The notes under the pieces are model-generated. The model ran no database searches. It was not told the DNA's origin and saw nothing but the letters and a program-made list of their open reading frames with translations. The position numbers and the translations under genes were made by a program. 64,000 nucleotides of DNA from Solen grandis (taxonomy: Eukaryota; Mollusca; Bivalvia; Adapedonta; Solenidae). Numbering within the stretch: position 1 is the stretch's first letter; every line of letters starts with the position of its first letter. Shown here piece after piece: positions 22,591 through 55,786 of this stretch. The stretch is from positions 42,747,224 through 42,811,223 of the forward strand of contig CM037782.1 of the NCBI GenBank assembly GCA_021229015.1, given 5' to 3'.

Positions 22591-22816
22591 ACATGGGAGG
22601 CTGCGAGAACGCGACCAGATCCTTGCTATCGATGGCCAGCCCCTAGACCTGTCTCACCAGGAGGCAATCAAGATACTGCAGAGTGCGGGGGGCCTAGTGG
22701 AGCTGATTGTGGCCAGGGGCCCCGTACCCCCGGGCCAGGGAGACACGCCCACCACTACTGACGCACAGCAGGACCTCAGCCAGTACTCCCCCACTGCAGA
22801 CACCTCAGATATGGTG
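22591..22816 (+). CDS. PATJ/MPDZ-like exon: second half of PDZ1 plus linker
   Basis: This is an internal exon of a multi-PDZ scaffold gene. Such proteins sit at apical junctions or synapses and bind partner C-termini. The acceptor is TGTTTACAG, and the donor GTG|GTAATA leaves phase 0. The first base completes a codon begun in the previous exon. It encodes HGRLRERDQILAIDGQ, the hallmark of the PDZ beta-D/alpha-A region, then an alpha-B helix (HQEAIKILQ), a final strand LVELIVARGP, and a Ser/Thr/Gln/Asp-rich linker of about 25 residues. It closely resembles the second half of PDZ1 of MUPP1/PATJ proteins. The matching first half (55449-55786) ends with AG of a split codon, so AG|A gives Arg and the domain reads through. 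That half lies downstream, which implies an assembly order error. A separate paralogous copy is the alternative. No PDZ2 exon was found in the remaining 29 kb of the segment. Confidence 0.93.
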
Positions 22817-24210
22817 GTAATATCAGAACTTTTTCACTCATTATCCATCTCTTCTTTCTTAATGTCAGCCTCTAATCTCTGTTTATCAGCGTCTATACTG
22901 CAGCGTCCTTTAAACGAAGTATAATATTGAATATACAGTGTAAGCATGACACTTTAATTAGAATCCAAACCAAAAAAATTCTAAAACATAAATTTTGGGT
23001 CCATGGCTAAAGACGTCAGTCTATGAACATTGTGTAGTTTAAACCCCAGACTGAAGAAATTAATATTTCATTGTTACATTTTACTTACTTATATTGGTAT
23101 CAAAATAATGAAAACTCTGTTTGTAGTGCTTTATCATACTTGTTTCTTACTAACTCTGCATGTGGTCAGAGTTACTTTACAATATCCTTTCCAGTGCCTT
23201 TCCTCTCCTACCCTTTTTCTTTCCTTCAGAATGATATATTACTTTTGTGATAATAGAATCTCATTGCCAGCCAATCAAATTCAGAACTCTTAGTGAATTT
23301 TGAATATTCTTAGGATTTGGAATTTTAAAATAAATATGGACTAATTAATCAGGGACTGTTGTCACAAATAGTTACATTTGAGCACGCATACTGGTCTAAA
23401 AGAATGGTTAATTTGAATAAGATAATTGAATTATTTTTTTTTTAAATTCAATCATCAGTTTGTGATTGTTGGTACATTGTGTCCCTTACAATCTATATGT
23501 ATAGCTATGATAGTTGTACATTTCTTTTCAGAAAACAAAACTGTAATGTTAGATCAGGAAGTGATGCTTTGTGATATTGGCAGAAATCATGTTTCAAGAC
23601 AGTAGTGTATTATCAATAATTTCAAAACAGAAACCTGCTAAATGAGTTTTAGATGTTTTAGAATACCCAGGTCAGGACATAGACTGTCTGGTCAGGTTCT
23701 GTGTCATCAGTATAAATCGTACTTGTATTACATTATGTCCAAGAGGCGGAACATGTGCATGGTTAGAAATGGTTGTGTATGTTCTTCACATCATCTTTAA
23801 TCTCCAATTGCCTCTCTTTCCGTTGGCATCTGCAACTTTATGTGAAATGCAAGAAGGGGTTGCTCTGATACATTCCAGTTTTTTGTGACAAACACATAAA
23901 TAGTCATTAAAAGTCTTCTTTTTATGTTTTTTTTTCCAGCCCACTAATTTACATGGTTGCAAACTGATGTTCAATTATGTTTGCTGTTACTACTGTTTCA
24001 AAAAAGTCAAAACATATATATCCCAGACGTTATATTTAGTAAAAAAAAAAAAAAAAATGGTTTGCAAATGGTAGTAGTGAGGACTAAAGGCCTATATTGT
24101 TTTTAATGGTTTGAACTGGCAATAATTATGAGACCCAATCTTTAAAAGATTGGGGTCTACAGTGAACATTGGACATGGGCCTCAAGATGTTTTTTGTTTG
24201 TTTGTTTTTT
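22817..24210 (+). other. Intronic stretch after the PDZ1b exon
   Basis: Nothing recognised. It contains an A-run near 24041-24056 and no further exon. Confidence 0.6.
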
Positions 24211-24774
24211 ATCTCACCTGAGCACAACATGCTCAAAGTGAGCTTTTGTGATCACCCTTCGTCTGGCGTCCAATGTGCATCGTCAACAATTTGGCTTGTT
24301 AACACTCTAGAGGCCATATTTTTAGGCCAATCTTTATTAAACTTAGTCATAATGTTTGTCTTCATAAAATCTTGGACAAGTTTGAAATTGGGTCATGTGG
24401 GGTCAAAAAGTAGGTCACGAAGTCAAATCTTTTAAAAACTTTGTTAACACTGTAGAGGCCACATTTTTGGCCCAATCTTCATGAAACTTGGTCAGAATGA
24501 TTTTCCCCATAAAATCTTGGACAAGTTCGAATTTAAGTCATGTTGAGTCAAAAAGTAGGTCATTAGGTAAAAAAAAACTTGTTAACACTCTAGAGGCCAC
24601 ATTTTTGGCCATATCTTCATGAAACTTGGTCAGAATGTCTGTTTCCATAAAATCTTGGACAAGTTCGAAGTTGGGTTATGTCGGGTCAAAAAGTAGGTCA
24701 ATATGAAAAATCCAACATATGTTTCTCATTTATAATCAGGTGAGAAGATTTAGGGCCATCATGGCCCTCTTGTT
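24211..24774 (+). mobile_element. HINE-like element, family A (short-unit subtype)
   Basis: It starts with ATCTCACCTGAGCACAACAT and its fold-back partner, then GTGATCACCC. Three to four units of about 140 bp follow, containing GGCCACATTTTTGGCC and AAACTTGGTCAGAATG. It ends with TCAGGTGAGAAG, the hairpin AGGGCCATCATGGCCCT and CTTGTTT. It is complete at both ends and noncoding. The internal unit differs from the unit of about 300 bp in the copy at 34267-35559, so ends are conserved while interiors are exchanged. Confidence 0.8.
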
Positions 24775-53639: not shown

Positions 53640-53744
53640 TCTGGACAGGTGACCACTGTACCCTCTCACGTACGTGACCAGGAATCGAACCTTGGATGCA
53701 TTAGGGAGAAGTGAAGTGTGTTACCACTACGCTATCCAGGCACC
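53640..53744 (-). mobile_element. tRNA-like head of a SINE
   Basis: On the minus strand it begins GGTGCCTGGATAGCGTAGTG, with A-box character (TAGCGTAGTGGTAA) and the B box GGTTCGATTCC. No intact cloverleaf can be drawn because the anticodon region is decayed. It is a third type of tRNA-derived head in the window. Confidence 0.6.
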
Positions 53745-55448
53745 GAAATTTGAATAATTCTGTTGATATGGTTAAATGTGCAAACATGCTGTCAAATGAA
53801 AAGTTAGAAATTCGCATTACTGTCAAATTTTGTCAGCATATAGGCGATAATCCTTCTTAATCATCTGAAAAATCAAGGTAACAAAGGGCAAGAATAGTGT
53901 GACTAGATCACTCGTTTAAAGCTGGCACTAAAGATTTAAAGACAGACGAGAGAACAGACGGGGAAGGGTTAGTTATGTTTCTAGCCGTGTGCGACTTCGT
54001 AAACATTATGAGTGATATTTTTTTGTGCGCTGGTTTGCGTGACCTTTAATTGTTATTTGTAATTGCCAGACTTGTCAGTTGTTGTAATATTTTATTGATA
54101 TTTTCACTGTATGTAGAGAATGTGTTCCGTTGTATGATACTTGTAAAATCATAAATTATAGGATGTGAATGGTATCACCACAGTCCTATTTATTTTTGAA
54201 CAACACTTGTATAAACATATAATGTGTGTAAAATCATCCGGTCCACTTAACATCATATCACCCACAAAAACAACATTATATGGTCCAGATGATGTCATAT
54301 TGAATTATGAAGGATTTATGCAAATGAGGTATAATGATTGTTGAGAGAGAAATCTGCAACCAAAAATATAAATGCTGATATAGAATTAGCACACATTCTA
54401 TGATTAGACCTCTTCTCTTTTAATGCTCTGCTTCTGAGAAAATGTTTTAGATTGATAAACATTTTCCACTTGAAGGGAATTATTCTCCTTTTTCGGGACA
54501 TTTTTCACGGGTCTTAACCATTCAATCATTCTTCTTGTAGTCCTAGCCAGGCATCATTGGTACTCCTTTGAATGTTCACTTCAATCATGCTGATGTTTGT
54601 TTGATTAATGGTACCATTTGGAGAAAAAGAGAGCTGTAAAGCTGTAAGATTTGTAACAATTTATAGTTTTATTTGTAGAATTTAATTTGTCATTATAAAG
54701 GAGAACTTGTAAAAAATTATGTATGGAACTGTTTCTATGTTTCCATTTTGAAAAAAATTGTTTTTAAAGTTTTAAGAGGTAGCTTCTTCACTCTGAAGAC
54801 ATGACTAACTAAGACTTTTTTAAGTAATTAAATTCTAATTTGTTACATTACATCCCCCCACACACACACACACCAAAAACATGGTGGGAGGGAGTTGTAT
54901 AGGATTTATAGAATTCAATTAGGGCTTTCCCTTGGTATTTTCAAATGGGGGACAAATGACCACTTCATATTTAATTAAGGAGACACATTTTGAAATGTTT
55001 GGGGGTCATTTTAGTCATTTGAGGGTCAACTTGGGCAAATTTTGTGTGCCAGAGAAATTCCTGCAGATTTATTTCCTTGTGTCCTATGTAAAGAAGACTA
55101 TAACCAACACTTAATGACATGTATTTCAATTCTTGAATTTTATGACCTATCCATATGAAACCTTGTCATCCAGGAAAAGGCAGTTGTGTGATAACCCAGG
55201 GTTGGACAACATGCAAGTGACTCCTGATGGAGAGCCAACACAATGTTAACAATACCTGTTAGTGTAATTGAAGTAAATCATGGTAGTCCTTTACTGTTGA
55301 TGTATTTAAGTAAATGCATGATTTTTATTCTCCATGAAAGATTTGTCAATTTCTCTGATTAAAAATAAATATGTTGATGAATGTGACAAAAAAGTTTGTT
55401 CTCATGATTCTCCAATACGTTTATCATGTTTATCCATCATTTCGTCAG

Positions 55449-55786
55449 GGAATGGAGACAACTGGACTGCAGGGCTATGACTTTGACTTCACTCCGGAAC
55501 TACAACTGACGCAAGTTGGTCAAGCCAATCCTGTTTTTGAACCGGAATCTCCAAATACCAGTGAACCATCTGAAGCTTTGCCGGACCAAGAACCAGCATA
55601 TCAGGCAACGCGTGAGTATGATGAGGAATTCACGCGAGTGATCCAGCGGGCAGCAAATGGTCGTGAGGTGGAGGTCATGAAACTCTTTAAGCCGGAGAAG
55701 CAGTCGCTGGGGTTCAGCGTGGTCACCAATCCAGGGGAGATGGGCATATATGTGCAGGACATTCAGCCAAGTGGCATTGCTGACAG
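55449..55786 (+). CDS. PATJ/MPDZ-like exon: linker and first half of PDZ1
   Basis: The acceptor is CATTTCGTCAG and the donor GACAG|GTATGG. It starts in phase 0, continuing from the L27 exon, and ends with AG, the first two bases of a codon. The first 60 or so residues are an acidic, proline-rich linker (GYDFDFTPELQL, PESPNTSEPSEALPD). Then EEFTRVIQRAANGREVEVM leads into PDZ strand A, the carboxylate-binding loop LGFSVV, strand C GIYVQDIQ and PSGIAD. The order matches the L27-PDZ1 region of MUPP1/PATJ. The remaining half of the PDZ is not found in the following 8.2 kb of the window, but is encoded in perfect phase at 22591-22816. The frame continues past the donor to 55883, but that tail is intronic. 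Confidence 0.93.

Follow-up and report, generated by a model that had tools for sequence, protein, structure and literature searches.

Reversed exon order of a MUPP1/PATJ-type gene in the Solen grandis assembly, a probable artefact of tile ordering

One PDZ domain on two exons

A 64,000-nucleotide stretch of the genome assembly of the bivalve Solen grandis (C6:42747224-42811223, on the 74.6-Mb scaffold C6; hereafter the window) carries three exons of a gene of the MUPP1/PATJ type. The first PDZ domain of the gene product (PDZ1) is divided between two of these exons, PDZ1a and PDZ1b, which stand in reversed order in the assembly. We analysed the window together with 100 kb on either side of it and found that the region is made of pieces parted by 100 N: S0 (present in part), S1 (25,937 bp), A, B, C, D and E. 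Pieces A, B, C and D, which we call tiles, are each exactly 50,000 bp long and were fully read without N. The tiles, gaps and exons of the window are as follows, with positions counted from the first base of the window.

1-2137: right end of tile A, whose gene exons are on the minus strand; the full 50,000-bp tile runs from -47862 to 2137
2138-2237: 100-N gap between tiles A and B
2238-52237, plus strand: tile B, exactly 50,000 bp, probably misplaced and belonging after C
22591-22816, plus strand: PDZ1b exon (second half of PDZ1 and the linker to ...TSDMV)
52238-52337: 100-N gap between tiles B and C, lying between the PDZ1b and PDZ1a exons
52338-64000, plus strand: left part of tile C, which is 50,000 bp long, ends at window coordinate 102337 and probably belongs before B
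52496-52659, plus strand: L27_2 exon, donor phase 0, 158 bp from the left cut of tile C
55449-55786, plus strand: PDZ1a exon (linker and first half of PDZ1), 338 nt, donor phase 2

The L27_2, PDZ1a and PDZ1b exons are all bordered by AG acceptors and GT donors on the plus strand, which bears out the positions and strand given for the two PDZ1 exons in an earlier reading of this DNA (the original prediction). The two 100-N gaps and the exactly 50,000 bp that they enclose go beyond that reading. The PDZ1a exon ends in ...QPSGIAD with two nucleotides (AG) left over. The first base of the PDZ1b exon, an A, completes the codon AGA (R), and the protein then continues with HGRLRERDQILAIDG. The PDZ1b exon has a phase 2 acceptor and a phase 0 donor, and the phases agree at both the L27_2/PDZ1a join (phase 0) and the PDZ1a/PDZ1b join (phase 2).

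Searches of Pfam identified L27_2 (PF09045) in the open reading frame (ORF) at 52471-52695 with an E value of 4.3e-11 (43 bits against a cut-off of 27). The PDZ1a ORF alone had no Pfam match at E 0.001, and the PDZ1b ORF alone matched just the end of PDZ profiles, with PDZ_6 at 3.9e-06, which is at its cut-off, and PDZ at 0.00084, below its cut-off. The joined exons yield, in addition to L27_2, a single PDZ domain that is almost entire (positions 3-80 of an 81-position profile, E 4.1e-13), in agreement with the claim that the second exon is the exact continuation of the first across a phase 2 split within PDZ1. The best solved match of the joined protein is 2o2t_A (Multiple PDZ domain protein, E 1.7e-26), with an alignment that covers residues 113-213 and is unbroken over the PDZ1a/PDZ1b junction, and the second best is 2db5_A (InaD-like protein). 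We take both chains to be the first PDZ domains of their proteins, and the assignment of the two halves to one PDZ1 of a single MUPP1/PATJ-type gene is upheld by these matches.

No fourth exon was found in the window: comparison of its 2113 six-frame ORFs with four full-length relatives gave further matches only at E 4.1 or worse, and tblastn of 14 relatives against the window gave nothing better than E 0.18 beyond the three exons. A pattern search of the window for the first coding exon (about MSLIS) returned 0 matches with a splice donor; without the donor requirement, there were two loose matches, at 4545 and 60000.

The three exons match consecutive residues of two full-length relatives, P0063 (Ylistrum balloti, listed as partial) and P0088 (Potamilus streckersoni), and the exon matches overlap solely where each extends into an intron. 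Among the matches listed (120 of 294), the joined protein is covered 98% by P0063 and 100% by P0088, and the highest identities in near-full matches are those to Dreissena, Mya, Potamilus and Ylistrum. The PDZ1 domain is joined in P0063 and P0088 and also in P0003 and P0004 (Nucella lapillus). Other predicted proteins end at the PDZ1a/PDZ1b splice site or within one residue of it (P0006, P0008, P0009, P0023 and P0029), appear to continue into the intron past PDZ1a (P0002, P0021 and P0031), or resemble stand-alone PDZ1b exons (P0026 and P0028). Given these stops, intron read-throughs and lone PDZ1b models, the intron between PDZ1a and PDZ1b seems to be conserved, and gene models seem often to be cut there.

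Judged by its sequence, this is an ordinary scaffold-protein gene of the MUPP1/PATJ (Patj) type, and nothing unusual was found in the gene itself. As in the polarity scaffold proteins MUPP1 (MPDZ) and PATJ (InaD-like), an N-terminal L27_2 is followed by PDZ1 and by further PDZ exons, ordered as in P0063 and P0088. These further PDZ domains correspond to residues 257-1522 of P0063, which are matched on the minus strand of tile A and the plus strands of D and E.

Two minor differences were seen among the relatives. Compared with the other aligned relatives, Solen grandis, Dreissena polymorpha (P0002) and P0021 lack a few residues of PDZ1a immediately ahead of GIYVQ/AIYVQ; the shortened site is at 55719-55742 of the window and is perhaps a deletion common to one bivalve lineage. 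In Mya arenaria P0001 (MAR_037412), an L27-like segment is repeated several times, which may reflect tandem exon duplication or a gene-model error.

Order of the gene across the tiles

The residues of P0063 are distributed over five tiles. Residues 6-62 and 118 to about 178 match C(+), about 178-256 match B(+), 257-510 match A(-), 547-1340 match D(+) and 1386-1522 match E(+), of which the first 11.5 kb was used for protein mapping. The exons that follow PDZ1b are on the minus strand of tile A, at about -19381 to -38090, which is beyond the left end of the window. The first of them starts with LNTEWTQ in phase 0, preceded by TTTCAG, as in P0063 and P0088.

There are also weaker cross-matches between a PDZ domain of the query and the exon of another domain. 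A best-score filter, which takes out such cross-matches, was applied before collinearity was counted. The filter also removed the PDZ1a match of P0063 and P0088, since that match and the PDZ1b match share residues where one of the two extends into the intron; the place of the PDZ1a match in C fits. In the order C(+) B(+) A(-) D(+) E(+), the kept matches are monotone on one strand for both relatives (17/17 for P0063 and 17/17 for P0088). A, B and C can be placed in 48 signed orders, and the matches are collinear solely in C(+) B(+) A(-). The repaired joins are compatible in phase: PDZ1a/PDZ1b in phase 2, and PDZ1b/next exon in phase 0 (...DMV against LNTEWTQ...).

Four tile joins as written can be tested with the gene; three of them (A/B, B/C and C/D) are wrong and one (D/E) is consistent. 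All breaks in order coincide with 100-N gaps, namely 2138-2237, 52238-52337 and the gap between C and D. The original prediction held that the exon order is wrong as assembled; this stands, with a larger scope, since the order of three 50-kb tiles in a row is reversed and one of them is also flipped.

Minisatellite join and tiling of the assembly

A second line of evidence is independent of the gene. We joined the ends of the tiles (both ends of A, B, C, D and S1 and the left end of E) in 90 ordered (50 distinct) pairings and scanned these, within the fetched region, for repeat matches crossing the join. The sole bridged pairing was that of the left end of A with the left end of D (52 matches, counting both readings). 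A 55-bp minisatellite that is cut at the left edge of A resumes at the left edge of D in register, with zero bases lost or gained. Identity at a lag of 55 is 90.9% across this cut, as compared to 92.6% within the array in A and 73.8% within that in D. With shifts of 0-109 bases on either side, near-equal identity was reached only at about one to two units (84-91%), and all other shifts gave 44% or less. The continuity of the array in register over the cut suggests that A in reverse orientation and D were once a continuous stretch cut at a point, rather than separate contigs lying near each other.

The four gap edges within the window, blasted against the window, gave no bridge: the end of A and the start of C matched dispersed repeats, and the start and end of B matched only themselves. 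Exact end overlaps of 12-2000 bp among the pieces were not found.

The L27_2, PDZ1a and PDZ1b exons each have one DNA match in the assembly searched (1,324,486,009 bp in 811 scaffolds), and this match is the window's own. In the original prediction, a contrary case was a pair of paralogues in tandem with separate partner exons. The single match per exon speaks against such paralogues, and so does the location of the exon following PDZ1b, on the minus strand of the upstream tile. A related explanation takes tile B (or A) for a second haplotype left in the assembly or for a paralogue in tandem, with the true PDZ1b elsewhere, downstream of PDZ1a. Haplotigs often remain in heterozygous bivalve assemblies, exons alone cannot separate an allele from a copy, and a genome search at the DNA level might miss a diverged paralogue. 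An allele, however, would be similar enough to show up in 1.32 Gb in which each exon was matched once; the remaining PDZ exons of a tandem copy would have to lie between 22816 and 52496, where there are none; and A and D share one 55-bp array in register. We consider a second haplotype or copy very unlikely. Paralogues and haplotigs are thus disfavoured on these DNA-level comparisons, which showed no second copy of any of the three exons.

The length of 50,000 bp recurs around the locus. The gaps that flank S0, E and a further piece, F, are likewise 50,000 bp apart, and the interiors of these three pieces were read in part. For S0 this length follows from a run of N that ends at 42623223. That run, at C6:42622424-42623223 upstream of S0, is at least 800 N long, in contrast to the 100-N joins, and is perhaps another type of gap. 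Of three gaps predicted downstream on C6, two are at the exact positions (42949761 and 42999861) and one (43049961) is absent.

The 50,000-bp tiling extends beyond this locus. At an arbitrary 50-kb spot on scaffold C1 there is one gap (20024615-20024714), and 12/12 further gaps predicted from it at a step of 50,100 bp are present (run C1:19724015-20325364). Eleven of the 12 are 100 N; the last starts at the predicted base, and all 150 bases read from there on are N. Only the first 50 kb of the C1 tiles between the predicted gaps was read. On 10 of 19 large scaffolds a gap is located exactly at 50001-50100, and five of these 10 have a second gap at 100101-100200. Among the 792 small scaffolds (C20-C811), all 21 sampled are exactly 50,000 bp long, including the last, C811.

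The equal spacing of gaps bears on the possibility that the written order is real in the animal, with an inversion or transposition inside the gene and a message restored by trans-splicing. Trans-splicing would yield the right protein, as the splice phases fit. Against a real order, every breakpoint falls on the 100-N gaps that bound 50,000-bp tiles, the partners of the minisatellite join are not adjacent as written, and the same gap spacing is found on other scaffolds. This indirect evidence would exclude trans-splicing, and the chance that the order is real is virtually negligible. The reversed genomic order of the original prediction therefore holds for the assembly and, on present evidence, does not hold for the animal.

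Proposed origin and minor features of the window

The reversed exon order is best explained as an artefact of assembly in which A(+) B(+) C(+) was written for C(+) B(+) A(-). We put the probability of this reading at about 0.97. The exon order and the register of the minisatellite are both restored by reordering alone. Contigs would have been cut into pieces of exactly 50,000 bp, and the pieces then ordered and oriented, presumably from chromosome conformation capture (Hi-C) contacts, and joined with 100 N. In this step A(+) B(+) C(+) would have been placed before D(+) E(+), in place of C(+) B(+) A(-), in which C/B and B/A probably abut without loss. If the tiles and not the restored contigs were ordered, the few contacts per short tile would have made local order and orientation unreliable. 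In the true order, splicing would be normal across a PDZ1a-PDZ1b intron of about 66.9 kb (46,551 bp in C and 20,353 bp in B), a figure that holds if C and B abut losslessly, and the intron after PDZ1b would, by arithmetic, be about 51 kb long.

Several observations weigh against this explanation. The C/B and B/A joins are supported by exons alone, with no bridging repeat in the fetched region. The length of 50,000 bp is not shared by S1 (25,937 bp) or by the piece that follows F. A gap at 50,001 is lacking on 9 of the 19 large scaffolds, and five of the 10 with that first gap have none at 100101-100200; scaffolds that lack the predicted gaps indicate that pieces of other lengths exist. The limit of the DNA-level search for diverged paralogues, mentioned above, also applies here. 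In addition, pieces shorter than 50 kb are apparently absent from the scaffold set searched, given that all sampled small scaffolds are exactly 50,000 bp.

Alternatively, the tiles might have been misordered because a real inversion of the block, heterozygous in the animal, misled the ordering. In favour of this, one tile of the three (A) is written inverted. B and C, however, are not inverted, so that the written order is not an inversion of C-B-A either. Short tiles give a weak Hi-C signal for order and orientation, and this weak signal needs no polymorphism to produce misplacement. We regard a heterozygous inversion as extremely unlikely, and equally so a real structural polymorphism of the block that is reflected in part by the tile shuffle. 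Tile cutting throughout the assembly, which would make many long genes and many breaks of local synteny false, is better supported than the polymorphism.

Two published accounts, of Corbicula fluminea (PMC8298618) and of the Asian corn borer (PMC11064298), describe a step ahead of LACHESIS ordering in which contigs are broken up, either into 50-kb fragments or into segments averaging 50 kb. The piece size resembles that of this splitting for error correction; here the pieces are exactly 50,000 bp and the joins 100 N. In those accounts, splitting serves error correction and the corrected contigs are ordered, whereas here the 50,000-bp tiles remain in the scaffolds. A small literature search found no publication on an assembly tiled this way.

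The biology of the locus is ordinary, with one conserved polarity gene. Its importance lies in data quality, as it concerns how reliable this genome is for its users at the scale of a gene. If the assembly consists of individually ordered 50,000-bp tiles, any gene that exceeds a tile in length may be broken up or have its parts shuffled, and local inversions, gene fissions, gene losses and microsynteny breaks called from such an assembly are suspect. Exon order combined with repeat register over the tile cuts provides a check that needs no reads.

Other features of the window were also recorded. A broken Tc1/mariner-like transposase lies on the minus strand at 59047-60325. It comprises a DDE_3 piece in 59047-59292, just over its cut-off and the sole above-cut-off Pfam match among ten other long ORFs, and HTH_48/HTH_32 in 59852-60325 with scores below the Pfam cut-offs, a transposase remnant. 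A marginal tRNA match at 57142-57214 on the plus strand (Rfam, 32.4 bits against a cut-off of 29) possibly belongs to a tRNA-derived short repeat. Tile B is rich in minisatellites, at 27182-28472 (unit of 30 bp), 28867-30209 (30/61/91 bp), 36188-36827 (37/78 bp), 42288-42630 (51 bp), 45199-45921 (28 bp) and 48121-48856 (56 bp). The 30-bp array at 27182 has long open stretches on both strands, which we take to be a by-product of the repeat.

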